From: an uncultured Clostridia bacterium
Lineage (GTDB): Bacteria; Bacillota; Clostridia; Oscillospirales; Acutalibacteraceae
Direction of reading: 5' to 3'
NCBI GenBank assembly: GCA_945868935.1
Contig: CAMBNE010000002.1
Coordinates: forward strand, 1-14,890
Length of the DNA: 14,890 nucleotides
Shown here: positions 3,627-13,874 of the stretch, in pieces
Position numbering within the stretch: position 1 is the first letter of the stretch
Layout: each line of letters opens with the position of its first letter
The notes under the pieces: model-generated
Seen by the model: only the letters and a program-made list of their open reading frames with translations
Told to the model about the DNA's origin: nothing
The model's database searches: none
Made by a program: the position numbers and the translations under genes

Positions 3627-4589
3627 ATGGAATACACGAAACTCGGTAATACCGATATTGAAATATCAAAGCTTTGCGTCGGTTGTATGAGCTTCGGCAA
3701 GCCGTCGGCAGACCTTCACGAATGGACGCTGAATCCGCAGGATACGGAAAATACGGTTCGCCACGCATTGGAGCTTGGTATCAATTTCTTTGATACAGCC
3801 AACACCTACGCACACGGAACCAGCGAAGAGTATCTGGGGCGTGCTATAAAAAACTGCACATCAAGAGATAAGGTTGTTTTAGCTTCAAAGGTATATTTTA
3901 ATGAGGGACATCTCTCGAAAGAGGCGATTAACCGGGAAATTGACGGCACACTGAAACGGCTGGGTACTGACTATCTTGATTTGTATATTATCCACCGCTT
4001 TGATTATGAAACGCCGATTGAAGAAACAATGGAAGCACTTGACGGACTTGTTAAATCAGGTAAAGTGCGTGCGCTCGGTGCTTCCGCAATGTACGGGTAT
4101 CAGTTTTACAATATGCAGCTTACAGCAAGGGATAACGGCTTTACACCTTTTGTATCTATGCAGAATCATTACAGCCTTCTTTACCGTGAGGATGAGCGTG
4201 AATTGATTCCCTTATGCAAGCAAATGGGTGTTTCGCTTACACCGTACAGTCCACTTGCGGCAGGCAGACTTTGCCGAAAAGAGTGGCATACCGATACAGA
4301 AAGAAGCAAAACCGACCGTATGGCTGCAAGCAAATATGACAGCACACAGGAGGAAGATTACAGAATCGTCCTTCGTGTGGCGGAGCTTGCCGAAAAATAC
4401 GGAAAAACAATGACGCAAATTGCACTTGCGTGGCAGTTTGCAAAGGGCGTATCTGCTCCTATCATCGGAGCAACAAAAGCAAAGTATTTTGATGACGCAG
4501 TAGGCGCATTTGATGTTAAGCTGACAGCCGAGGACATTGCTTATCTGGAAGAATTGTATGTTCCTCATAAAATTGTCGGCGCACTTTGA
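3627..4589 (+). CDS. Aldo/keto reductase
   Basis: A 320-residue NAD(P)H-dependent oxidoreductase of the aldo/keto reductase superfamily. From the ATG at 3627, supported by AGGAGG at about 3615-3620, the catalytic tetrad is visible: D56 in FFDTANTYAHG, Y61 in the same motif, K88 in LASKVY and H123 in YIIHRFD. MQNHYSLLYRE and SLTPYSPLAAGRLC are typical of the bacterial 'YghZ/Tas/IolS-like' subset, and APIIGATKAKY near the C-terminus contacts the nucleotide phosphate. It is complete and of normal length. Co-transcription with flavodoxins suggests detoxifying reactive carbonyls; the actual substrate cannot be inferred. Confidence 0.95.
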   Translation: MEYTKLGNTDIEISKLCVGCMSFGKPSADLHEWTLNPQDTENTVRHALELGINFFDTANTYAHGTSEEYLGRAIKNCTSRDKVVLASKVYFNEGHLSKEAINREIDGTLKRLGTDYLDLYIIHRFDYETPIEETMEALDGLVKSGKVRALGASAMYGYQFYNMQLTARDNGFTPFVSMQNHYSLLYREDERELIPLCKQMGVSLTPYSPLAAGRLCRKEWHTDTERSKTDRMAASKYDSTQEEDYRIVLRVAELAEKYGKTMTQIALAWQFAKGVSAPIIGATKAKYFDDAVGAFDVKLTAEDIAYLEELYVPHKIVGAL

Positions 4590-5331: not shown

Positions 5332-5370
5332 AGACCGTCAAATCTCATTCGAGACTTGACGGTCTTTCTT
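5332..5370. terminator. Terminator shared by convergent CMD and SirTM genes
   Basis: AGACCGTCAA (5332-5341) pairs with TTGACGGTCT (5356-5365). An inner stem TCTC/GAGA (5343-5346 with 5351-5354) pairs around ATTC, and TTTCTTCT follows on the plus strand. The hairpin overlaps the last codons and stop of the convergent SirTM gene, which ends at 5338. It is nearly identical to the hairpin at 9082-9120. Confidence 0.85.
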
Positions 5371-6240
5371 CTCTGTAATTGTATGAAGAAAATTTCCTAT
5401 GTCGACTTGTATACAAAGAGATCGCCCTGCTATTTCGTTTGGACAATAGCTTTCTTTGAGGTTTACACATGCATATACAGCGTTGGGATTCTTCACTGTC
5501 ATCTGCCAAAACGGATATTTTATAATTACAGGCGTATTCATTCCAACACCGAGTTCCAAAAACAAAATATGCGAATTGCTGTGGCGGCGAATAAAATCCT
5601 CATAACGGTTCGCCGCCGCATACCAGCCTGCGTCCTGTACGAATGTATCGTCGCACCTTAAATTCATTGTCATAGGTGCGCCGCAGACCGGACATTTCGG
5701 GATAAGATTTGTTGGTATTTTCATATCATTTTGCTGTTCTGCCATTGCTCTGACAGCTTCTTCATTATCATAAGTTTTATCGTGACAAGGCTTGGAGCAT
5801 TGCCATAAGCCGTAATCTCCCTGTGTATAAAACAAGCGATTTTTATCAAAGCCTGCCCGTTGGAACTGATGGTCTACATTTGTTGTCAGTACGAAATAAT
5901 CCTTATCTTTTAAAAGTTCAAGTAAATCGCTGTACGGCTTGCCGACAGGACAGTCATATCGGTTTACAAGAATATGCCTTGACCACCACACCCAATATTC
6001 TTCGAGTGTTTCATAAGGGTAGAAACCGCCCGAATACATATCGGTAATGCCGTATTTTTTATGAAAGTCCGAAAAATACCTCTCGAATCGTTCGCCGCTG
6101 TAATCAAAGCCTGCTGAAACGGAAAGACCCGCTCCCGCCCCTATAACAATAGCGTCTGCCGTGTCTATTTCATTCTTCAGCCTTGTTATATTATCCGAGA
6201 AGTTCTCGGTAGATTTCGTAGTCTGTATCTTTGAAAACAT
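5338..6240 (-). CDS. sirTM: SirTM: class M protein ADP-ribosylating sirtuin
   Basis: Three hundred residues from the ATG at 6240, chosen because AAGGTGG (6247-6253) lies six bases upstream; the frame is open to 6285. The Rossmann motif GAGAGLSVSAGFDYSG (34-49) is the sirtuin NAD loop. TTNVDHQF holds N121, and TQGDYG has Gln140 where deacetylase sirtuins have the catalytic His. That substitution is the hallmark of SirTM enzymes, which transfer ADP-ribose from NAD to protein. C148, C152, C183 and C186 form the zinc site. It overlaps the macrodomain gene by 50 bases, so the two are translationally coupled. In known operons the target is a lipoylated GcvH-like carrier; no such gene is present here, so the substrate is open. 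Confidence 0.92.
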   Translation of the reverse strand: MFSKIQTTKSTENFSDNITRLKNEIDTADAIVIGAGAGLSVSAGFDYSGERFERYFSDFHKKYGITDMYSGGFYPYETLEEYWVWWSRHILVNRYDCPVGKPYSDLLELLKDKDYFVLTTNVDHQFQRAGFDKNRLFYTQGDYGLWQCSKPCHDKTYDNEEAVRAMAEQQNDMKIPTNLIPKCPVCGAPMTMNLRCDDTFVQDAGWYAAANRYEDFIRRHSNSHILFLELGVGMNTPVIIKYPFWQMTVKNPNAVYACVNLKESYCPNEIAGRSLCIQVDIGNFLHTITEKKDRQVSNEI

Positions 6241-6964
6241 TGAATACCACCTTAATTTTGCTGTGTGAATACCTCTTATAGTCATTTACGGTTTTGACTG
6301 CGATTTCAGCGGCTGTGTCATTGGGAAAATGAAATTCTCCCGTTGATATACAGCAAAACGCAATGCTTTTTATGCTGTTTTGCTCTGCAAGCTCCAGACA
6401 TGAACGATAGCAGGAAGCAAGTAAATCACAGTCCTGCTTTGTAAGCTTTCCTCTGACAATCGGGCCGACTGTGTGAAGTACATATTTGCAGGGCAGATTG
6501 TACGCCGGTGTTATTTTTGCCTTGCCGGTTTCTTCTTTGTGTCCCTGTTTCTTCATAATTTCAGCACATTTCAAGCGAAGCTGAACACCGGCAAAGGTGT
6601 GAATCGCATTGTCTATACAGCCGTGACAGGGACAGAAACAGCCCAGCATTTCGGAATTGGCGGCGTTTACGATAGCGTCACAGGCAAGCGTTGTAATATC
6701 TCCCTGCCATAAATAAATATCCGGCTCAGAAGGCTCTAAATCATCAAGATTTGTAATCCCCTTCTGACTTGTTTCCTCACGAAGATACTCGTCTTGTATA
6801 GCAATGAAATCATCACTAACAGGCAAAGGCATACGGATATTAAACAGAGAGCGTAAAAGTTTTTTCTGTTCCGTTTCGTTTGTCGGGATTTTTATGCTTC
6901 CATATTCCGGCAGTTCTTTCAAAAGCTCTGTGATTAAATATTCTCTTTTCTCGGCTTGTGTCAT
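6191..6964 (-). CDS. Zinc-dependent macrodomain ADP-ribosyl hydrolase
   Basis: A 257-residue protein. An N-terminal helical extension (1-80) precedes the macrodomain: LWQGDITTLACDAIVNAANS (85-104), the GCFCPCHGCIDNAIH region (108-122) and YVLHTVGPIV (161-170), then a C-terminal CCISTGEFHFP loop. C109, H114 and C116 match the Cys/His/Cys pattern of the SirTM-linked zinc macrodomains, which remove ADP-ribose from protein; two extra cysteines (C111, C133) are nearby. Pairing with SirTM makes it the eraser for the modification SirTM writes. It starts four bases after the stop of the ferredoxin-fusion gene, with AGAGGA as ribosome binding site. The name is secure; the protein substrate is not known. 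Confidence 0.92.
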   Translation of the reverse strand: MTQAEKREYLITELLKELPEYGSIKIPTNETEQKKLLRSLFNIRMPLPVSDDFIAIQDEYLREETSQKGITNLDDLEPSEPDIYLWQGDITTLACDAIVNAANSEMLGCFCPCHGCIDNAIHTFAGVQLRLKCAEIMKKQGHKEETGKAKITPAYNLPCKYVLHTVGPIVRGKLTKQDCDLLASCYRSCLELAEQNSIKSIAFCCISTGEFHFPNDTAAEIAVKTVNDYKRYSHSKIKVVFNVFKDTDYEIYRELLG

Positions 6965-6968
6965 AGTC

Positions 6969-7583
6969 TTATCCTCTTTTTATAACTGCATTATTGGGGC
7001 AGACAGTCATACAGTTTCCGCAATGCAGACAGTTCTTTTGAATAATCATAGCCGGAACAGCCCCAAAATCAATGCAGTTTTGCGGACAAACAGGTTCACA
7101 CGCTTTGCAACCGATGCAGTTATCGCCAATCTCATATCCCTCATTTATTTCTTGCCCGTTCCCAAAAGTGAAAGAAGCTCGCTCAATAGGTTTTTTGGAA
7201 AGGTCGAACCATTCGCCGGTTCCCTCATAAATGCGAAATACGGTAAGAGCCTTGCGGGACTCTTTTGTCGGATAGATTTCTTTCATATAGCTGTTTTTCT
7301 CAAACAGCATGTTAAGCGGTTCGCTGCCGACTTCTTCGACCTTACCACTGACAGAAACGGAGGCGCAAGATAATGTGTTGCTGCCTTTCATTCCGGTCAA
7401 AGCAACATACCCTTTTTGTTTTAATCGCTCGTAAAGATTCTTACCCTTTGCCGTTAAAAAATACAGTCCGCTCTCGTCATAGTCCATTATATCAATAGCA
7501 CAGGTTACCGGCAGTCCGTTATTATCTACTGTTGCCATTACGATAGTATGGATTTCTTCAACAAGATATTTCAGGTAGTTCAT
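6969..7583 (-). CDS. FMN-binding split-barrel / 2x[4Fe-4S] ferredoxin fusion
   Basis: From the ATG at 7583, behind GAGGAG, the product has 204 residues. Residues 1-125 look like a pyridoxamine-phosphate-oxidase-type split barrel (IHTIVMATVDNNGLPVTCAID, LYFLTAKGKNLYERL), which binds FMN or F420-like cofactors. Residues 153-200 are a bacterial ferredoxin with two CxxCxxCxxxC clusters: Cys156/159/162/166 and Cys185/188/191/195. Such fusions are cytoplasmic flavin-iron-sulphur electron-transfer proteins of unknown substrate, common in strict anaerobes. It follows the SnoaL-like gene, with a hairpin between them, and precedes the macrodomain gene by four bases. This suggests the ADP-ribosylation pair answers a redox signal. 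The ORF extends upstream to 7697, but that part crosses the hairpin and has no family similarity. Confidence 0.93.
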   Translation of the reverse strand: MNYLKYLVEEIHTIVMATVDNNGLPVTCAIDIMDYDESGLYFLTAKGKNLYERLKQKGYVALTGMKGSNTLSCASVSVSGKVEEVGSEPLNMLFEKNSYMKEIYPTKESRKALTVFRIYEGTGEWFDLSKKPIERASFTFGNGQEINEGYEIGDNCIGCKACEPVCPQNCIDFGAVPAMIIQKNCLHCGNCMTVCPNNAVIKRG

Positions 7584-7653: not shown

Positions 7654-8427
7654 TTAGAACTTGCCGTTCTGATTCTGCCAAGCGGATTTATCTGCAATCG
7701 TCTCCATTACATCCCAATGCTCGGCAATCTTACCGTCCTCAACTCTCCAAAGGTCATAGTAAGAGGTCGGAGCGCCGCCAAAGGTACCTTCGCTGACTGC
7801 AAGTACGAAATTGCCCTGTGCAAGCACCTGATGTACGGTAGTGTAAATCATCTGAATGTTTTGCTCTGCAAGAGCGGCGAGTGCAGCACCTAAACCGGAT
7901 AAACCGTCTGCAATTCCTGTGTTATGCTGAAGGTATGTATCACCGTCAAAATAATCGGGCATTTTCTCCGGACGGTTGCCCTGCATAACATCGTAAAGGA
8001 AGTTCTTTACGACCTCACGGTTTGCTTCGGTCTTGTCAAGGTCTTTGATTACCAAAGTTCCGTCAAGCTGTGTTCTGCCGGACGGATTCGGTTCTGCTTT
8101 TGCGGCAAGGTTATCCCAATGCTCTGCAATCTTACCGTTTTCATCAAAGCGGAAGATGTCAAAAGCGACCTGTTCACCCGCACCTGCAAAATTGTAAACG
8201 GTCTGCAAGAAAACCTTGTCGCCGTCCTCAAAGGCACGAATATTGTTTACTGTTGTCTTAACCGGAGCGGAAGCAAGATATGCAACTGAACCGACAAAGG
8301 CGTCACGACCTGTGCCGTATGCAAGGTTGTGCTGAATGTAGCCTTCTGCAAGCAGTTCGGTTGCTTTCTCGGTGTCACCGGTTGCGAATGTGTTGATAAG
8401 CTCAAGTGCTTTCTGTGTGTTTGTCAT
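7654..8427 (-). CDS. Tandem SnoaL/NTF2-like domain protein
   Basis: The start is the ATG at 8427, with AAGGAGG eight bases upstream, giving 257 residues; the open frame runs to 8478 without support. The protein is an internal duplication of a cone-shaped SnoaL/NTF2-like domain. Repeat 1 covers about 6-107 and repeat 2 about 134-242. Matched motifs are YIQHN (30-34) with YLQHN (165-169), and GKIAEHWD at both 98-105 and 232-239. Single-domain members bind small hydrophobic molecules, and some are cyclases or isomerases; the conserved His in each QHN and EHW supports an active pocket. No signal peptide is seen. It is the first gene of the minus-strand operon divergent from HxlR 2, so it is probably the main induced product. 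Substrate unknown. Confidence 0.88.
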   Translation of the reverse strand: MTNTQKALELINTFATGDTEKATELLAEGYIQHNLAYGTGRDAFVGSVAYLASAPVKTTVNNIRAFEDGDKVFLQTVYNFAGAGEQVAFDIFRFDENGKIAEHWDNLAAKAEPNPSGRTQLDGTLVIKDLDKTEANREVVKNFLYDVMQGNRPEKMPDYFDGDTYLQHNTGIADGLSGLGAALAALAEQNIQMIYTTVHQVLAQGNFVLAVSEGTFGGAPTSYYDLWRVEDGKIAEHWDVMETIADKSAWQNQNGKF

Positions 8428-8498
8428 TTTTGTTTCCTCCTTAATATCATTTTGGATTACTTCTTTGGATTTTTTCAAGCTTTGTAGCTCTTGACTAT

Positions 8499-8527
8499 AT
8501 TATATTTGTGACAGTACTGCCTGTAAA
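8499..8527 (-). promoter_or_regulatory. Promoter of the SnoaL-ferredoxin-macro-SirTM operon
   Basis: Read on the minus strand, TTTACA (8527 to 8522), a 17-base spacer and TATAAT (8504 to 8499) form a near-consensus sigma-A promoter 72 bases before the ATG at 8427. It is the only strong promoter seen for the four-gene operon. Confidence 0.75.
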
Positions 8528-8580
8528 GTAAGCACAATATTGTGGTGTGGTTACCAAAAGGGTACTAATGGACGGTTACC
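8515..8580. promoter_or_regulatory. Candidate HxlR operators at the minus-strand operon promoter
   Basis: TACTGCCTGTAAAGTA (8515-8530) is a TACT-N8-AGTA inverted repeat that overlaps the -35 and spacer of the operon promoter. It resembles the TACT-N7-AGTA sites known for HxlR/YodB regulators. CACAATATTGTG (8533-8544) is a perfect 12-base palindrome just upstream. GGTTACC occurs twice as a direct repeat (8549-8555, 8574-8580), with a related GGGTACT (8560-8566) between them. The stretch is a dense cluster of possible binding sites; which one HxlR 2 uses is not decidable by eye. Confidence 0.5.
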
Positions 8581-8670
8581 GAGAGGAAACAAATGTGTAA
8601 ACAAAAGGATTTCAGCAGCTTTTAAGCTCTAAAAAAATTTTTTGTAATTTTTTATATTTCGGTGAAATAC

Positions 8671-8728
8671 TTGATTTCATCTATGACAGTATAGTATAAT
8701 ATGAGTGTTAGAAACAAAAAGATACTAT
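8671..8728 (+). promoter_or_regulatory. Promoter and inverted repeat before HxlR 2
   Basis: TTGATT (8671-8676), an 18-base spacer and TATAAT (8695-8700) form a sigma-A promoter. ATAGTAT (8691-8697) over the -10 box and ATACTAT (8722-8728) in the leader are perfect 7-base inverted arms, 24 bases apart. The TAGTATAAT core is the same as in the HxlR 1 promoter. Part of that identity is simply the -10 box, so autoregulation is only suggested. Confidence 0.55.
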
Positions 8729-8743
8729 TGTGAGGTTTTCATT

Positions 8744-9079
8744 ATGAGTAATAACAAATCAAAAGAATTGCCGGCTTGCCCGGTTGAAACAACGCTCACC
8801 TTAATCGGTGATAAATGGAAGGTTTTAATATTAAGAGACTTACTGCCGGGGACAAAGCGTTTCGGAGAACTGAAAAAATCAATCGGCAGTGTGTCTCAAA
8901 AGGTGCTTACTGCTCAGCTTCGTGATATGGAAGAAAACGGTCTTGTAAACCGAAAGGTATATGCGGAAGTGCCGCCGAGAGTAGAATACTCTCTGACAGA
9001 ACTGGGACAGAGCCTGAAGCCCATACTTGACGCTATGTGGAATTGGGGAGAAGATTATAAAGAAAAATGTAATAAATAG
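8744..9079 (+). CDS. HxlR-family winged-helix regulator 2
   Basis: A 111-residue HxlR regulator. The ATG at 8744 is preferred, with GAGG eight bases upstream; a GTG at 8705 has no ribosome binding site and lies at the transcription start. Residues 9-35 (LPACPVETTLTLIGDKWKVLILRDLL) carry the conserved Cys12 and the first helices. RFGELKKSIGSVSQKVLTAQL is the helix-turn-helix, and VPPRVEYSLTELGQSL is the wing and following helix. The Cys suggests thiol sensing of electrophiles, as in YodB-like members. It is divergent from the SnoaL-ferredoxin-macro-SirTM operon, which it most likely controls. It is a distant paralogue of HxlR 1 in the same window, and both sit in the same kind of divergent arrangement. 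Confidence 0.94.
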   Translation: MSNNKSKELPACPVETTLTLIGDKWKVLILRDLLPGTKRFGELKKSIGSVSQKVLTAQLRDMEENGLVNRKVYAEVPPRVEYSLTELGQSLKPILDAMWNWGEDYKEKCNK

Positions 9080-9081
9080 CA

Positions 9082-9120
9082 AAAGACCGTCAGTTCTCAT
9101 TTAGAGAGTTGACGGTCTTT
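9082..9120. terminator. Bidirectional terminator after HxlR 2, copy of the 5332 hairpin
   Basis: AAAGACCGTCA (9082-9092) pairs with TGACGGTCTTT (9110-9120). An inner TCTC/GAGA stem (9095-9098 with 9104-9107) surrounds ATTTA. The T-rich end on the plus strand and the A-rich start, which gives U on the minus strand, allow termination of both HxlR 2 and the convergent WYL gene. The arms and inner stem are shared with 5332-5365. Confidence 0.88.
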
Positions 9121-9162
9121 ACATTTGTCATTGGCTATGAAGCCGTAAACAGTGTTGTTGAA

Positions 9163-10212
9163 TTATGATATTAAATTATTACTGTAATTAATTACTGCTT
9201 TTTCAAATTCTTCTTTTATTTCATTTTTCAGAGAATCGGGTTCGATTATTGTAGCATCAGCACCGAATTTTAAGAAGTAGTTTTTTGCTTGATTTTCAGA
9301 ACAGTAGAAATTATATTCCTTTATATCGTTACTTTTATTATTGATTGCAGTAAATTCCGGTCGGTTGTGTTGCAATATGGAATATAAATGTTGCCCTTTG
9401 TTTGTAAGGAGTACTTTTATTTGAATTGGTTCATAAGAAATATATGCAGGAGTACGCACTGCTAAAATTTTTTCAATTTCATTTTGCTCGTTTTTAGTGA
9501 TAGTTTCTTTTTTTCCATACACACTTATTTTATTTAATCTTGAAATCCTGTATGAACATATTGTGTTTTTTTCATCATTTTCAAAATGTGAAAATCCAAC
9601 AAGGTAATTATAGTTTGTTTCAGGATCATGCATTATTTGATAGGGTTTTATGAAAACAATTGCCCCACCGTGAAGCTCTGCTCTCAATAATTTATTGTTT
9701 TTAATTGAATTTTCTATCTCATCGTAAAAATCAGCAAATATTATTTTTTCTCGGAAATTAAGTGATTGTGATGCATAATCTTCAAATAAATAGTGCAAAT
9801 ATTTGCCGATATATTCATAGCTGTAATCACTAACCGAGTCGGGAAAAATATTGCGATTTACGTTAAGCGTATCCATTGTTTTCTCTGAAATACTGAATTT
9901 AAAAGAAACACCATGGATTGGTTTATTTTTTTCTTCAAAAAATGCTTTTTTATGAGCAATAAAGAGTTTTTCAGAGAGTCCTTTTTTATCTTCTGATTCG
10001 AGATTGTTGAGAGCGGAATTAATGATTTGTTCTATACTGTCGCTGAAATAAGAAAAATCTGCAGAAGATTTTCCGCTATAATTTTTTATTATCCTGTTGA
10101 GAATTCCGTTGAAAGTAAGCTTATTATTTTTGTTTCGAAACAACAGAACATCGTTTTTGATTATTTTATATGTGTTTAGTGTAACTGTTACATTTTGCGG
10201 TGTAATACCCAT
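9163..10212 (-). CDS. WYL-domain regulator with ribbon-helix-helix-like N-terminus
   Basis: A 349-residue protein starting at the ATG at 10212, with AGGAGG eleven bases upstream. Residues 7-46 (VTVTLNTYKIIKNDV..., TFNGILNRIIKNY) have the strand-helix-helix look of a ribbon-helix-helix DNA-binding domain, not the winged helix usual in WYL proteins. A second such segment may lie at 102-150. Residues about 178-240 resemble a WYL ligand-binding barrel (LHGGAIVFIKPYQIMHD, NYLVGF, YRISRLNKISVYG). The C-terminal KNYFLKFGADATIIEPDSLKNEI resembles the WCX tail. RHH-WYL proteins are known as accessories of type VI-D CRISPR in Ruminococcus-like bacteria, but no cas gene is present here. It is divergent from the micro-ORF operon, which it likely controls. 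The ligand is unknown; WYL domains are thought to sense nucleotides or nucleic-acid ends. Confidence 0.82.
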   Translation of the reverse strand: MGITPQNVTVTLNTYKIIKNDVLLFRNKNNKLTFNGILNRIIKNYSGKSSADFSYFSDSIEQIINSALNNLESEDKKGLSEKLFIAHKKAFFEEKNKPIHGVSFKFSISEKTMDTLNVNRNIFPDSVSDYSYEYIGKYLHYLFEDYASQSLNFREKIIFADFYDEIENSIKNNKLLRAELHGGAIVFIKPYQIMHDPETNYNYLVGFSHFENDEKNTICSYRISRLNKISVYGKKETITKNEQNEIEKILAVRTPAYISYEPIQIKVLLTNKGQHLYSILQHNRPEFTAINNKSNDIKEYNFYCSENQAKNYFLKFGADATIIEPDSLKNEIKEEFEKAVINYSNNLIS

Positions 10213-10249
10213 TTGAACATTAACCTCCTTGTATTATTAATTATTATAT

Positions 10250-10330
10250 TTTACAACATAATTCAAATATTGTAAATATAAATAGAATAAATAAGTATAT
10301 AAAAATCTTAAAATATATAGAGTTTAAGAT
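10250..10330. promoter_or_regulatory. Two inverted repeats, candidate WYL-regulator operators
   Basis: TTTACAA (10250-10256) and TTGTAAA (10270-10276) are perfect 7-base arms with a 13-base spacer, next to a leftward TATAAT (10248 to 10243) that may be the WYL gene's own promoter. ATCTTAAA (10305-10312) and TTTAAGAT (10323-10330) are perfect 8-base arms with a 10-base spacer, in the middle of the divergent region. The rest of 10213-10429 is AT-rich sequence without other clear signals. AT-richness makes chance repeats more likely, so the assignment is tentative. Confidence 0.4.
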
Positions 10331-10370
10331 AAAATAATAGAATAAAAATATAAAAATAAATGATATTTGA

Positions 10371-10379
10371 TGTTATAAT
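10371..10379 (+). promoter_or_regulatory. Extended -10 promoter of the micro-ORF operon
   Basis: TG at 10371-10372 one base before TATAAT (10374-10379) forms an extended -10 element. The sequence 17 bases upstream (TAAAAA) is a poor -35, which is usual for extended -10 promoters. Transcription would start near 10386, about 44 bases before the first micro-ORF. Confidence 0.5.
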
Positions 10380-10429
10380 ATATCTATGGTATTATATTAA
10401 CACAACAAAAGTGATGCGGAGGTGATTTG

Positions 10430-10555
10430 ATGTTTGGATTAATAGCACTTACCGGTTTGACAACATGGAAAACAATAGGTCTTATCTGCTCAGTGTCCGG
10501 AGCGGTTTTAGAACTTGGTTCTACCGTTTCGGGATTGTTTAGAGATGACGATTAA
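10430..10555 (+). CDS. Hydrophobic micro-protein 1 (41 residues)
   Basis: An ATG at 10430, four bases after GGAGGTGA (10418-10425), opens 41 codons ending at TAA 10553-10555. The product begins MFGLIALTGLTTWKTIGLIC and continues as a Gly/Ser/Thr-rich hydrophobic helix (SVSGAVLELGSTVSGLF) that ends in RDDD. It is long enough to cross a membrane once, has no cleavable-signal layout, and is slightly acidic overall. I do not recognise a family. It is the first of three micro-ORFs that share the same ribosome binding sequence, in the operon divergent from the WYL regulator. Its C-terminal half matches micro-protein 2 in pattern (G-x-x-Φ-E-L...G). A membrane-active peptide, small membrane subunit or bacteriocin-like product are all possible. 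No function is assigned. Confidence 0.7.
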   Translation: MFGLIALTGLTTWKTIGLICSVSGAVLELGSTVSGLFRDDD

Positions 10556-10587
10556 TGACAGCGGTTATTGTAGTGGGAGGTGATACT

Positions 10588-10668
10588 ATGTTAGGGGAAA
10601 TCCTTATGGGAATTGGTATGGTTATCGGCACTGCTATTGAATTAATTGAGAATATCAAGGGCAGATGA
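10588..10668 (+). CDS. Hydrophobic micro-protein 2 (26 residues)
   Basis: An ATG at 10588 follows GGGAGGTGAT at 10576-10585 and opens 26 codons to TGA at 10666-10668. The product starts MLGEILMGIGMVIGTAIEL and ends IENIKGR: an amphipathic or membrane-inserting helix with Gly at 8, 10 and 14 that could support helix packing. An in-frame ATG at 10555, overlapping the stop of micro-protein 1 as TAATG, would add 11 residues. The strong ribosome binding site directly before 10588 argues for the shorter form. The segment G-T-A-I-E-L-I-E-N-I-K-G lines up with G-A-V-L-E-L-G-S-T-V-S-G of micro-protein 1, suggesting a duplicated peptide gene. No known family was recognised. Confidence 0.65.
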   Translation: MLGEILMGIGMVIGTAIELIENIKGR

Positions 10669-10702
10669 TAATCAGAATTATTATATATGCGGAGGTGATA
10701 TA

Positions 10703-10846
10703 ATGCCAAGTCCTAAAGATACACACGGACCAATCGTAAAGACAGGTCCTACCGCCGGAAAAAACCGCAGCAGAAATAACAATGGTAGATGGCGAGGTAA
10801 ACGCAGTGACGCCGGAAAGAAGAGGTGGATGAGAGTTGACAGTTGA
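10703..10846 (+). CDS. Basic micro-protein 3 (47 residues)
   Basis: An ATG at 10703, four bases after GGAGGTGAT (10691-10699... ATAATG), gives 47 codons; an upstream in-frame start at 10646 has no ribosome binding site and overlaps micro-protein 2. The peptide has 13 Lys/Arg against 3 Asp, a net charge near +10, and is rich in Gly and Asn. Its C-terminal half has a loosely repeated pattern (TAGKNRSR, NGRWRGKR, DAGKKRW). It is probably unstructured or nucleic-acid-binding, quite unlike its two hydrophobic neighbours. It closes the micro-ORF operon and is followed by a GC-rich hairpin 12 bases after the stop. No family was recognised; RNA or DNA binding, or neutralising an acidic partner, is speculation. 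Confidence 0.72.
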   Translation: MPSPKDTHGPIVKTGPTAGKNRSRNNNGRWRGKRSDAGKKRWMRVDS

Positions 10847-10857
10847 ACATCATAGAG

Positions 10858-10886
10858 CAAAGCCGCCCTTAATCAGGGCGGCTTTG
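10858..10886 (+). terminator. GC-rich hairpin ending the micro-ORF operon
   Basis: CAAAGCCGCCCT (10858-10869) and AGGGCGGCTTTG (10875-10886) form a perfect 12-base stem with loop TAATC. The T's lie within the stem end and the tail (GCAAATTT) is weak. It is probably a terminator, possibly leaky, between the micro-ORFs and the DUF3825 gene. Confidence 0.7.
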
Positions 10887-10926
10887 GCAAATTTAATATA
10901 AATTACGACAAATATGGACAAAAATA

Positions 10927-10955
10927 TTGAAAATATAACCAATATGTGATATAAT
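10927..10955 (+). promoter_or_regulatory. Near-consensus promoter of the DUF3825 gene
   Basis: TTGAAA (10927-10932), a 17-base spacer and TATAAT (10950-10955) with an extended TG at 10947-10948. Upstream, GACAAATAT and GACAAAAATAT start exactly 10 bases apart (10907 and 10917), a possible binding site on one face of the helix. The leader is about 28 bases, with AGGAGAG before the ATG. Confidence 0.75.
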
Positions 10956-10990
10956 ATATAAAAATTTAAAAAAATTCAGGAGAGATAAAC

Positions 10991-12958
10991 ATGATTGATA
11001 ATAATAGTTCAAATAATAATTTTTGCAATGACTCTGAAAATAAGCAGAATAATGAAACTGAATGTGAAACAAAGAACTTTCAGGAAACTTATCGAGATTT
11101 TATCTATCATCCGGGAGAGTACGCATATGCAAAATGTATCAAAGTGACGGAGAACCGTTATATATTTCAATGTATTGACAAATATTCTTATTTTTATATT
11201 TCAAAATCTTTGGCGGACGAGTTTAATTTTAATATTGAAATAGATAAATATTATTGGTCTAAGCTTGGAACTGATTTTAAACAAACAGAGAATAATTGTC
11301 AATACTCAAAAGTGTGGTTTATTGCAGATGCATCAAAAAGTAATACAGGAATTGAAATTAACCAATTTGCAAACTTGCATAGAAAGAACGATATAATCTA
11401 TGCTCCTATCACAGATAAAAATATAGATTACATATCGGTTAATATTTCTCCGAATTTTACATTACGTATAGAATCAAATAAATTTAAGGGTCAATATTCC
11501 GATTTTAAGCAAGGAGATATCGCTAAGTTTGAGATAGAAAGTCTTTTGAGGAAAGAAAATGGCAAAATCACTGTACAATTAAAGCCGGTTTTCCACGAAA
11601 CTAGGAATGATAAGTTCCTTTGGGATATGTTGCCAAAAACAATGGATTATTCTGAAGTTACTATACCTGAAAAAATTTTGGGTATAATTAATAAAAATAT
11701 ACAAGATAAACTTTTTTCATATTCAACATTTACGAACTGTGCTTTAGATGATAATGATGATTCACTGAGCCGTGAAGAGTTAATATCATTTCTCAATGAG
11801 AAATATAAAATTGCATATGATAGTAAAAAAGTGACTATGCATTATAATTATAATTACTATTATATGGAATTTGATACGGGAGAAAAAGATGAAAGAGGCG
11901 TACCGATACATGTTTGTTTTAAAAAGAAAAGAGAAGAGATAAACAGGAATTGGAAATGTAATCTGATTGGATTTTCAAGCGCAGAACGTGAATTTGAAAA
12001 ATATGTTTATGTTGATAATTGGCAGAAACTATTGGACGAATTAAGCGATATGTTACTTAAAGGAGAAAACTGGGATTTATCAGGCGAAAATGAAAAAGGT
12101 AAGCACTTCATTCTCAAACAATATCTGAAATTCACTTTCTATAAAGTTCGTATTGACAACAAAATAACTGAAAATATAGATAAAGGTATTGCTGTTTTTG
12201 ATACGGGTCTTGTGGATAAATCATATGATAATATATATTGCTACCTTGAGAAAAATAAGAACAAATATGACTTTTATGAGCGAGATTGGAGCTTTGGATA
12301 TTTTGCAACATGGGGAAAGGGGGAGAATGGTAAAAACTTACCTCGTTTATTTGCAATACAACCAAATCCGGCAAAATATATTGATAAATTAGAAAATATT
12401 TTCTATGACACTGATAAAATTTTGTTTTGTGATTATGAACACATAATATTGGATAATATAAACCGATTGCCTTTTGAATTTTTGAAAACCAAATTGAAAG
12501 ATTACGAGCGTTTTCAAAAGATTATTAATAAATATAGCAATGACCCGAAATCTTTTAAAAAATTTAATGAGGTATCAGAATATATTAAGGAAGACCATAA
12601 GGGAGATGGAAAAGCTTATAAAGAAATTCAAACGAGTTTGGAAACGGCAGTTGATACGGCAATAAAATATTGCAGATGGAATTATAAAACTGCGATACCG
12701 ATATATTATCCCAGAACAAATGGTATCAGTTTGTTGCTGCCTTTGTGTTTAACTAACAATGACAACAGAGCTGATGTTGCATTGGTGATTGAGAAACTTG
12801 AAAGCGGACATTATCAAGGTCAGACAATATTAACCCTTGATATGGCATATCAGGATGCAAGACTAATATGTCGCCCAAACAGCGAATGGCTTACACCTGA
12901 AAACATTGAAACTTATCATAATATAGAAGATGATGATTTGGATGATTTTGATGAGTGA
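10991..12958 (+). CDS. DUF3825 domain protein with N-terminal OB-fold-like region
   Basis: A 655-residue protein. Residues 1-30 are Asn/Glu-rich and disordered. Two beta-rich stretches (about 42-75, AYAKCIKVTENRYIFQCID; and 145-200, FKGQYSDFKQGDIAKFEIESL) look like S1/cold-shock OB folds. Residues about 205-300 may hold a small helical, HTH-like module. The C-terminal half matches DUF3825: the AVFDTGLVDKSYDNIYCYLE motif near 401-420, and a closing block with ISLLLPLCLTNNDNRADVAL, HYQGQTILTLDMAYQDARLI and CRPNSEWL (579-634). The tail is acidic (DDDLDDFDE). DUF3825 has no established activity; its partners suggest RNA binding. It has its own promoter just after the micro-ORF operon, on the same strand. 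No membrane segment or known catalytic motif was found. Confidence 0.8.
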   Translation: MIDNNSSNNNFCNDSENKQNNETECETKNFQETYRDFIYHPGEYAYAKCIKVTENRYIFQCIDKYSYFYISKSLADEFNFNIEIDKYYWSKLGTDFKQTENNCQYSKVWFIADASKSNTGIEINQFANLHRKNDIIYAPITDKNIDYISVNISPNFTLRIESNKFKGQYSDFKQGDIAKFEIESLLRKENGKITVQLKPVFHETRNDKFLWDMLPKTMDYSEVTIPEKILGIINKNIQDKLFSYSTFTNCALDDNDDSLSREELISFLNEKYKIAYDSKKVTMHYNYNYYYMEFDTGEKDERGVPIHVCFKKKREEINRNWKCNLIGFSSAEREFEKYVYVDNWQKLLDELSDMLLKGENWDLSGENEKGKHFILKQYLKFTFYKVRIDNKITENIDKGIAVFDTGLVDKSYDNIYCYLEKNKNKYDFYERDWSFGYFATWGKGENGKNLPRLFAIQPNPAKYIDKLENIFYDTDKILFCDYEHIILDNINRLPFEFLKTKLKDYERFQKIINKYSNDPKSFKKFNEVSEYIKEDHKGDGKAYKEIQTSLETAVDTAIKYCRWNYKTAIPIYYPRTNGISLLLPLCLTNNDNRADVALVIEKLESGHYQGQTILTLDMAYQDARLICRPNSEWLTPENIETYHNIEDDDLDDFDE

Positions 12959-13050
12959 TTAATTAGATGTAAAACCAAGAGTCAATGATATTAATAATAG
13001 GCAAATCAATATAGAACTGTAATATTCTATAATTGCAACCAAACAACACA

Positions 13051-13082
13051 AAATGCACCCATAACACAGCTTGGGTGCATTT
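13051..13082. terminator. Hairpin downstream of the DUF3825 gene
   Basis: AAATGCACCC (13051-13060) pairs perfectly with GGGTGCATTT (13073-13082) around a 12-base loop. The following GTATTAAA is a weak tail, so it may act together with the stronger hairpin 30 bases further on. Between the DUF3825 stop at 12958 and this hairpin nothing else was seen. Confidence 0.6.
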
Positions 13083-13107
13083 GTATTAAAATAAGAGATT
13101 TGTTCCA

Positions 13108-13149
13108 ACCGAGTACCTCGGTACGTAAATCGCGTACCGAGGTTTTTTT
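13108..13149 (+). terminator. Strong intrinsic terminator with an alternative hairpin
   Basis: ACCTCGGTACG (13115-13125) pairs with CGTACCGAGGT (13133-13143) around TAAATCG, followed by seven T (13143-13149): a textbook terminator. The preceding ACCGAG (13108-13113) can instead pair with CTCGGT (13117-13122) around TAC, using the same bases as the terminator's 5' arm. This closes the AT-rich island before xpt. The stretch 13150-13227 shows nothing. Confidence 0.85.
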
Positions 13150-13227
13150 CACACGTATTTATTTAATCTGTATTAATTTTATTAATTTCTTACGTAATAT
13201 TTCTACATTTTATATAAAAATAAACAA

Positions 13228-13256
13228 TTGAATCTTGTCGATTAATGTAGTATAAT
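13228..13256 (+). promoter_or_regulatory. Promoter of xpt
   Basis: TTGAAT (13228-13233), a 17-base spacer and TATAAT (13251-13256). The start point near 13263 leaves a leader of only about 36 bases, too short for a purine riboswitch. Confidence 0.8.
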
Positions 13257-13298
13257 ATTTTTATATTTCTATTTTTATAAACAGAGGATGCAGGTATT

Positions 13299-13874
13299 AT
13301 GAAGCTTTTAGAGGACAGAATTCTCAAGGACGGTCATATCGGTAAGGGCAATGTGTTAAAGGTTGACAGCTTTTTAAACCACCAGATTGACACCGCTTTT
13401 ATTTCTGAGTTAGGCAAGGAGTTTTACAGACTCTATAAAGATGAAAAAGTCACAAAAATTCTCACTATCGAAGCTTCGGGGATAGGTATTGCCTGCTTAA
13501 CTGCACAATATTTTAATGTTCCTGTTGTATTTGCAAAGAAAACGCCAACAATAAATATATATTCTGATATATATACCTCTAAGGTATATTCATTTACCCA
13601 CAAAAAAGACTATGATATTTATGTATCAAAGCAGTTTATCAATAAAGATGACCGTATTCTTATTATTGATGACTTTCTTGCAAAGGGCAGTGCATTATCT
13701 GCATTGATTAATCTTATCAATGACGCAGGTGCTCAGACTGTCGGAGCAGGCATCGTTATTGAAAAGGCTTTTCAGGATGGCGGAAAAATAATCCGTGATA
13801 TGGGAATCAGGGTTGAGTCGTTAGCAATGATTAAGGAAATGACTGAAGAAGACGGCATTGTTTTCTGCAGTTAA
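13299..13874 (+). CDS. xpt: Xanthine phosphoribosyltransferase
   Basis: The product is 191 residues, the normal length of Xpt. MKLLEDRILKDGHI at the N-terminus and DSFLNHQID are highly typical of the family. EASGIGIACLTAQYFNVPVVFAKK forms the central region, and ILIIDDFLAKGSAL (120-133) is the PRPP-binding loop. The enzyme makes XMP from xanthine and PRPP in the cytoplasm, letting the cell reuse xanthine. It is transcribed from its own promoter and followed 49 bases later by a BMP-family lipoprotein that probably brings in purine nucleosides, so the pair forms a purine salvage unit. In many Firmicutes xpt lies under a purine riboswitch; none was seen here. Confidence 0.96.
   Translation: MKLLEDRILKDGHIGKGNVLKVDSFLNHQIDTAFISELGKEFYRLYKDEKVTKILTIEASGIGIACLTAQYFNVPVVFAKKTPTINIYSDIYTSKVYSFTHKKDYDIYVSKQFINKDDRILIIDDFLAKGSALSALINLINDAGAQTVGAGIVIEKAFQDGGKIIRDMGIRVESLAMIKEMTEEDGIVFCS

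Follow-up and report, generated by a model that had tools for sequence, protein, structure and literature searches.

The 14,890-base stretch of DNA analysed here (the window) is an entire contig (C2) of an uncultured Clostridia bacterium, whose genome is fragmented and 58.9% complete, and it contains between positions 9163 and 12958 an island comprising, in order, a WYL regulator gene on the reverse strand, an AT-rich gap, three very short open reading frames (micro-ORFs m1, m2 and m3) and a gene for a DUF3825 protein. From reading the ORFs, the island lies between an HxlR-type gene on its left and an xpt-like gene (13299–13874) on its right, and its G+C content is 0.302 as opposed to 0.416 in the remaining window, the micro-ORF stretch itself having a G+C of 0.422. 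A database entry 99% identical to the DUF3825 protein of the window is labelled Ruminococcus sp. An earlier interpretation made from the letters alone (the sequence-only reading) had described a WYL gene divergent from three micro-ORFs and a 655-residue DUF3825 gene, all within an island richer in AT than its flanks, and both the layout and the compositional contrast were confirmed.

All three micro-ORFs are preceded by a Shine-Dalgarno (SD) signal. Mismatch-free copies of GGAGGTGATNNNATG occur at the starts of m1, m2 and m3 and at no other site in the window, and allowing up to two mismatches yields four matches as against a mean of 0.82 in shuffled sequence. Three SD-led ORFs of 20–75 residues fall inside 1 kb of the window, whereas not one of 2462 1-kb strand bins reaches two in a background consisting mostly of DUF3825 and xpt neighbourhoods and not of random genome. 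Two of the encoded peptides had been taken for membrane-type and one for basic: m3 is indeed strongly basic and m2 is membrane-like by hydropathy, but m1 is borderline.

The product of the WYL gene is a relative of RspWYL1. In a single-sequence search of the PDB it retrieved one relative, RspWYL1 (6oaw; E 4.3e-13, residues 68–335), and a profile (A6) aligned to the same structure over positions 5–348, including the N-terminal RHH1 stretch (E 5.5e-30). The homology spans RHH1, RHH2, WYL and the C-terminal domain, which places the protein among RspWYL1-like RHH-WYL proteins and bears out the ribbon-helix-helix (RHH) DNA-binding-type domain that had been suspected; no helix-turn-helix (HTH) family matched when a winged HTH was sought at the N-terminus, which aligns to the RHH part of 6oaw. 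Pfam returned WCX alone (25.9 bits; cut-off 23.9), PADLOC 2.0.0 returned CRISPR-associated WYL models only (WYL E 7.8e-15), and database relatives within search reach numbered five, the protein itself included, with identities of 56–100%. RspWYL1, which also comes from Ruminococcus, is a dimer that prefers single-stranded RNA (ssRNA) to double-stranded DNA (dsDNA) and boosts Cas13d, and a double mutant of Arg131 and Arg133 in its RHH2 abolishes ssRNA binding (PMC6547453). The window gene differs in being divergent from microproteins, and its product has Ser103 and Lys105 at the positions aligned to Arg131 and Arg133 (by manual count, one extra chain residue allowed for). Beside the WYL gene no Cas13d-sized ORF occurs before the contig end at 14890, the longest having 655 residues, in a search confined to this contig.

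Three other RHH-WYL loci were located by WYL homology (L121, L122 and L190, in genomes G080, G100 and G1064), one in Adlercreutzia caecimuris (L029) was located by its DUF3825 gene and then by tblastn, and two Fusobacterium records (L177 and L178), the only plasmid relatives of the WYL protein, have near-identical WYL genes with N-termini that are RHH by eye. Counting SD-led ORFs of 20–75 residues on the divergent side of the WYL gene and within 1.6 kb, there are three in the window, two in L121, four in L190, one in L029 and none in L122, L177 or L178. Among background bins, 28 of 1472 had one such ORF and none had two; for control genes of at least 250 residues in 72 background loci, the corresponding figures were 7 and 0 of 566. 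The contrast between two of six loci (the window excluded) and 0 of 566 controls corresponds to a probability of about 9e-5 under the hypergeometric distribution, to be read with the caution that most of the background comes from around DUF3825 and xpt genes and that the Fusobacterium pair is not independent. Three weaker WYL matches (L191, L192 and L193) had no SD-led ORF; the N-termini of L191 and L193 are HTH-like, and L193 offered 489 bases.

The loci with microproteins differ in their details. In L121, whose WYL gene is seemingly frameshifted or degraded, the two counted ORFs each encode 26 residues, 20 of which are identical between the two, and an additional ORF of 25 residues has a weaker SD; assignment of a 751-residue protein at this locus as an HATPase was dropped because Pfam did not support it. 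At either end of the 3.8-kb contig of L190 stand two copies of one and the same CRISPR-like repeat (33–140, 66 bases apart, and 3696–3796, 69 bases apart), with the RHH-WYL gene and the microprotein operon in the middle; the locus also encodes hydrophobic proteins of 121 and 55 residues, and a comparison with Rfam, repeats included, gave zero matches. Both in L190 and in the window, the gene order is hydrophobic first and basic last. In L029, a transposase gene (6365–7489) splits the RHH-WYL gene, and between WYL and DUF3825 lie a 139-residue protein with a transmembrane-like stretch (2.18) and then a basic SD-led ORF of 32 residues. As a separate observation, what faces the RHH-WYL gene of L122 in divergent orientation is a gene for an AAA protein whose peptidase M41 match falls just short of the cut-off (7924–9396 and 9447–10514).

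Among the microproteins, m3 belongs to a conserved family, with 103 relatives in a large protein database, in line with the expectation that micro-ORFs would be conserved at the protein level. Six residues (T7, G9, P10, G15, P16 and R22) are invariant in 103 of 103 relatives, and a further set (Ser3, Pro4, Val12, Lys13, Thr14, Thr17, Gly19, Ser23, Arg24, Asn25, Gly28, Trp30, Arg31, Lys33, Arg34, Asp36, Gly38 and Arg41) is present in at least 95 of them, conservation that is somewhat overstated because the search requires exact five-residue words in common with the query and misses divergent relatives. The family is scattered: m3 was detected in 1 of 100 genomes of the genus (the window's own), in 5 of 398 genomes of the family (including the own genome and one degraded remnant), and in 1 of 39 and 1 of 4 genomes of the genera of G271 and G290, each time the starting genome. 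The remnant, in G173 (L120, 9983–10096), is an instance of gene decay. A phylum-wide profile search of 398 genomes gave four partial matches beyond the own genome, of which the three inspected look like other basic proteins and were set aside. Plasmids and phages yielded zero matches to m3, and scans of viral_contigs with DUF3825, m3 and WYL yielded zero confirmed matches. The literature searched, to which most subscription journals did not belong, held no description of a function for m3 or for DUF3825.

Elsewhere, m3 has other neighbours. In G133 (L119) and G271 (L175) it follows large genes that are homologous to each other (44% identity over 1002 residues) and a partner gene likewise homologous between the two loci (46% over 396 residues). 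The large protein of L119 has kinase, NB-ARC and TPR matches in Pfam, and that of L175 has kinase and TPR matches in PADLOC; the kinase-STAND-TPR gene adjoining m3 in L119, together with its homologue in L175, recalls kinase/STAND conflict systems of the general type in PMC7159879, whose consulted passages make no mention of microproteins, and from which the window differs in having no kinase-STAND gene. In L175, m3 and the kinase-TPR gene belong to a dense defence-like island of about 13 kb (3548–16741), along with AbiEi/AbiEii, type I restriction-modification specificity and restriction genes, and NYN. L119 presents a zinc-ribbon-like ORF and three small hydrophobic ORFs, then m3, and the stretch around m3 in G290 (L176) includes a recombinase-like gene and one of Cch type. 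By reading of ORFs, a small zinc-ribbon-like ORF is 5' of m3 in L119 (Pfam 9.3e-5, below cut-off), L175 and L176. Folding places a comparable hairpin immediately 3' of m3 in L175, L176 and the window; the best one in L119 begins 77 bases on. A shared longest contig of 43,014 bases suggests that a WYL relative (P0016) and an m3 relative (P0023) are neighbours.

We also observed that, in two genera, m3 islands lie directly 5' of an xpt-like gene (L119, 7385–7984, in G133; and the window). The idea of an insertion hotspot upstream of xpt was rejected: none of 17 same-genus xpt loci had a similar island by eye, and their upstream genes vary (the check reached 6.5 kb upstream at most, not as far at a few loci, and took in ORFs of at least 60 residues).

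The large protein at the other end of the island is a member of DUF3825 (PF12873; 209.7 bits, cut-off 27). Across 52 sequences of the domain, His484, Arg492 and Tyr608 are present in all and Lys566 in 48. In other DUF3825 proteins the conserved residues of this C-terminal domain recur, but the N-termini differ: the window protein begins with two S1-like domains and has no OST-HTH match, whereas P0012 has an OST-HTH just under the cut-off. A fold search with the DUF3825 region (residues 290–645) gave no confident match, rows for RelE/ParE-type RNases being weak; sequence comparison with the PDB gave chance-level matches only, and none in BFVD fell below E 0.001. The notion that the region consists of two duplicated RelE-like halves was discarded (hhalign probability 0.3%, structural rows weak).

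The sequence-only reading had placed this protein at the centre of the system and expected it to recur with WYL and the micro-ORFs. As a rule it does not: a WYL relative was found with DUF3825 at 1 of 80 contig loci, i.e., L029, in another phylum and with the arrangement kept, and tblastn of m1–m3 in the 105 loci searched found no match below E 0.09, although many had short flanks and queries of 26–47 residues are weak. The idea that DUF3825 generally and invariably accompanies WYL and m1–m3 was consequently rejected. Because a strong hairpin and a promoter-like sequence of its own precede the gene, DUF3825 looks like a separate transcription unit.

Features of the island and its boundaries (positions in the window)
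Feature	Position	Strand	Description
Hairpin	9082–9120		HxlR-type/WYL intergenic; near-perfect; -24 kcal/mol, z -6.8; candidate bidirectional terminator; absent from terminator-rule list
RHH-WYL regulator	9163–10212	-	349 residues; RspWYL1 relative
Candidate promoter region	10213–10429		AT-rich, divergent; candidate operator location
Promoter-like TTGATG-17-TATTAT + TG	10367–10395		9/12 matches; within divergent gap
SD GGAGGTGAT of m1	10418–10426	+	Perfect match, 3 nt 5' of ATG
m1	10430–10555	+	41 residues; best 19-residue hydropathy 1.52; charge -2
SD GGAGGTGAT of m2	10576–10584	+	Perfect match, 3 nt 5' of ATG
m2	10588–10668	+	26 residues; best 19-residue hydropathy 1.81; charge -1
SD GGAGGTGAT of m3	10691–10699	+	Perfect match, 3 nt 5' of ATG
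m3	10703–10846	+	47 residues, basic; net charge +10; conserved family, unnamed in databases searched
Hairpin	10858–10886	+	Directly 3' of m3; perfect 12-bp stem; -23 kcal/mol, z -6.0; possible micro-operon terminator
Promoter-like TTGAAA-17-TATAAT + TG	10927–10955	+	11/12 matches; 5' of DUF3825
DUF3825 protein	10991–12958	+	655 residues; Pfam E 6.6e-62; AlphaFold2 mean confidence (pLDDT) 89.3
Two S1/OB-like domains	11108–11608	+	DUF3825 protein residues ~40–112 and ~117–206
DUF3825 region modelled alone	11858–12925	+	Residues 290–645; AlphaFold2 pLDDT 92.7; Pfam match 357–633
Hairpin	13048–13084		3' of DUF3825; -16.9 kcal/mol, z -4.6; possible terminator; absent from terminator-rule list
Terminator-like hairpin + T run	13115–13143	+	5' of xpt; -21.3 kcal/mol, z -4.8

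The island had been thought to be bounded by strong terminators. Hairpins do occur on both sides, but only that at 13115–13143 has the T run that, together with a stem, constitutes our terminator rule, and the others, lacking one, are only possible terminators; this applies also to the hairpin 3' of m3, which had escaped the sequence-only reading. Promoter-like sites number 41 in 8400–13600 as against a shuffle mean of 28.7, four of them scoring 11/12, and are frequent because the sequence is AT-rich. Rfam gave zero matches in the window. Outside the island, two overlapping genes on the reverse strand (5338–6285 and 6191–6964) were read as Sir2-type and macrodomain proteins, a pair which we take to resemble the SirTM-macrodomain ADP-ribosylation pairs.

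What, then, is the island for? The locus is probably an undescribed stress or anti-phage module. We tentatively favour, with slightly less than an even chance of being right, a horizontally acquired stress or anti-parasite cassette made up of an RHH-WYL regulator, a divergent microprotein operon and a variable large protein. The better unit is a core of WYL and microproteins, with DUF3825 as one among several large neighbours: L121 and L190 were found by WYL homology alone, and yet both have divergent SD-led clusters. The original interpretation is accordingly partly supported, with its centre shifted, in that the divergent pairing of RHH-WYL with SD-led micro-ORFs recurs at other loci, but DUF3825 is not supported as the core of one fixed system. 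The conflict or stress setting it proposed gains some support from the CRISPR-like repeats of L190, from the AbiE, type I restriction-modification and kinase-STAND genes beside m3 in L175, and from the occurrence of DUF3825 at the end of a prophage and on a plasmid of 3.1 kb. The scattered distribution of m3, the order of hydrophobic before basic proteins in the window and L190, and the two small ORFs of L029 likewise favour the cassette reading. Well supported are the anatomy, the homologies, the SD signals, the recurrence at some loci and the conservation of m3, whereas the functions proposed next are inferences.

Under the cassette reading, a regulator of the RspWYL1 family, presumably dimeric, would detect damage or infection through nucleic acids that betray it and act on the micro-operon, either by repression or by activation upon binding nucleic acid such as ssRNA or single-stranded DNA (ssDNA). 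Once released, the operon would yield strongly translated microproteins, of which m1 and m2 might act in or on the membrane to slow or stop the cell, and the basic m3 might act on nucleic acid or as a partner of m1 and m2. The variable large protein would complete the cassette: here the S1-S1-DUF3825 protein, probably expressed from its own promoter and predicted to bind and possibly to cut RNA, and elsewhere other large proteins.

The proposed sensing and release are drawn by analogy with PafBC, DriD, CapW and BrxR. PafBC (PMC11804915) and DriD (PMC12340889) are WYL regulators that act upon ssDNA binding, and DriD of Caulobacter induces DidA, a 71-residue membrane protein that blocks division (PMC4211646). 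The likeness, a WYL regulator whose output is a small membrane protein, is only one of how the systems might work: DriD is an HTH-WYL activator with a locus tag distant from that of DidA (PMC4211646), and DidA is not known to be related to m1 or m2. CapW and BrxR, likewise WYL regulators and linked to defence genes, share with the window protein a C-terminal extension domain and a position adjoining candidate defence genes, but they have a winged HTH where the window regulator has RHH motifs, and the adjoining genes differ (PMC9122588, PMC9122601).

Several observations weigh against this reading. Three of the six other RHH-WYL loci (L122, L177 and L178) have no divergent SD-led microprotein and L029 has one only, so that the pairing is not universal. 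RspWYL1 itself favours ssRNA over dsDNA (PMC6547453), and the replacement of Arg131/Arg133 by Ser103/Lys105 means that neither DNA nor RNA binding is secured for the window protein; a search for a WYL operator found several weak AT-rich inverted repeats in 10213–10429, none of them decisive. The hydropathy of m1 (1.52) is borderline only, and m1 and m2 are without shown sequence relatives, the large protein database having been queried with DUF3825, WYL and m3. PADLOC 2.0.0 gave no match to the DUF3825 protein, and the DUF3825 gene of a Ruminococcus phage belongs to a gene run that also includes an exonuclease and an anti-repressor, which is not a typical cargo position.

A doubtful but quite conceivable alternative is that DUF3825 is a mobile gene in its own right, perhaps a defensive one, that happens to lie beside a WYL/microprotein cassette, the two not cooperating. 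Its own promoter-like sequence and the intervening hairpin fit this view, as do the 79 of 80 DUF3825 contig loci at which no WYL relative was found and, by reading of ORFs, the lack of DUF3825 beside m3 in L119, L175 and L176. Short DUF3825 proteins are, moreover, carried on plasmids and phages (10 records, 5 of them inspected), among them a 3.1-kb plasmid with four annotated genes (pK666_3k, L183), phage Javan385, where the gene is at the prophage end after the lysin (L179), and a Geobacillus plasmid, where it is near an abortive-infection gene (L181). Set against this independence is L029, where DUF3825 is of the same full-length type as in the window and once more has a double-RHH WYL gene in divergent orientation, small ORFs separating the two. 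That same pairing, the S1-like domains of the DUF3825 protein and the homology to RspWYL1, an ssRNA binder that boosts Cas13d (PMC6547453), would also suit a WYL protein that serves as an RNA-binding accessory and modulates the DUF3825 protein directly, the micro-ORFs not being its targets. We regard this as unlikely, since the RHH-WYL genes of L121 and L190 face microproteins with no DUF3825 seen there, and Arg131, mutated together with Arg133 in the mutant deficient in ssRNA binding, is Ser here.

Two further explanations concern the microproteins themselves. A toxin-antitoxin system, in which m1 and m2 are membrane toxins silenced or neutralised by m3 or by the WYL protein, would account for a single gene run that is hydrophobic first and strongly basic last, and for the scattered distribution; but m3 occurs at L175 and L176 with no tandem hydrophobic microproteins seen, and it is strongly conserved, which is unusual in an antitoxin matched to variable toxins, and we judge this explanation improbable. 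The tandem run of short hydrophobic peptides, each led by a strong SD, and the two similar 26-residue copies in L121 might instead indicate a secreted multi-peptide bacteriocin or peptide signal of the leaderless type under WYL regulation. Known leaderless bacteriocins are cationic, however, whereas m1, m2 and the hydrophobic peptides of L190 are acidic; no transporter or immunity gene was seen inside the island, and m3 belongs to the set, all of which leaves this possibility with little to recommend it.

A broader version of the cassette reading, which we put forward as speculation and consider rather unlikely to hold in full, is that an undescribed class of immune modules has RHH-WYL proteins of the Cas13d-accessory family as its switch. 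The effectors would be operons of membrane-active plus basic microproteins of 25–60 residues, plugged into CRISPR loci and into different large partners such as S1-DUF3825 and kinase-STAND proteins, with the THGPIVKTGPTAG family (i.e., m3) as a near-invariant component shared by several of them.

If the interpretation of the island as a cassette is true, it would link three things so far viewed separately: an RHH-WYL protein of the kind that helps Cas13d, unannotated clusters of microproteins, and the DUF3825 proteins of plasmids and phages. It would add a protein family, that of m3, with a core of about 40 residues, of which six are identical in every relative found, and would offer a small and concrete example of how gut Clostridia might use microproteins to respond to infection or nucleic-acid stress.

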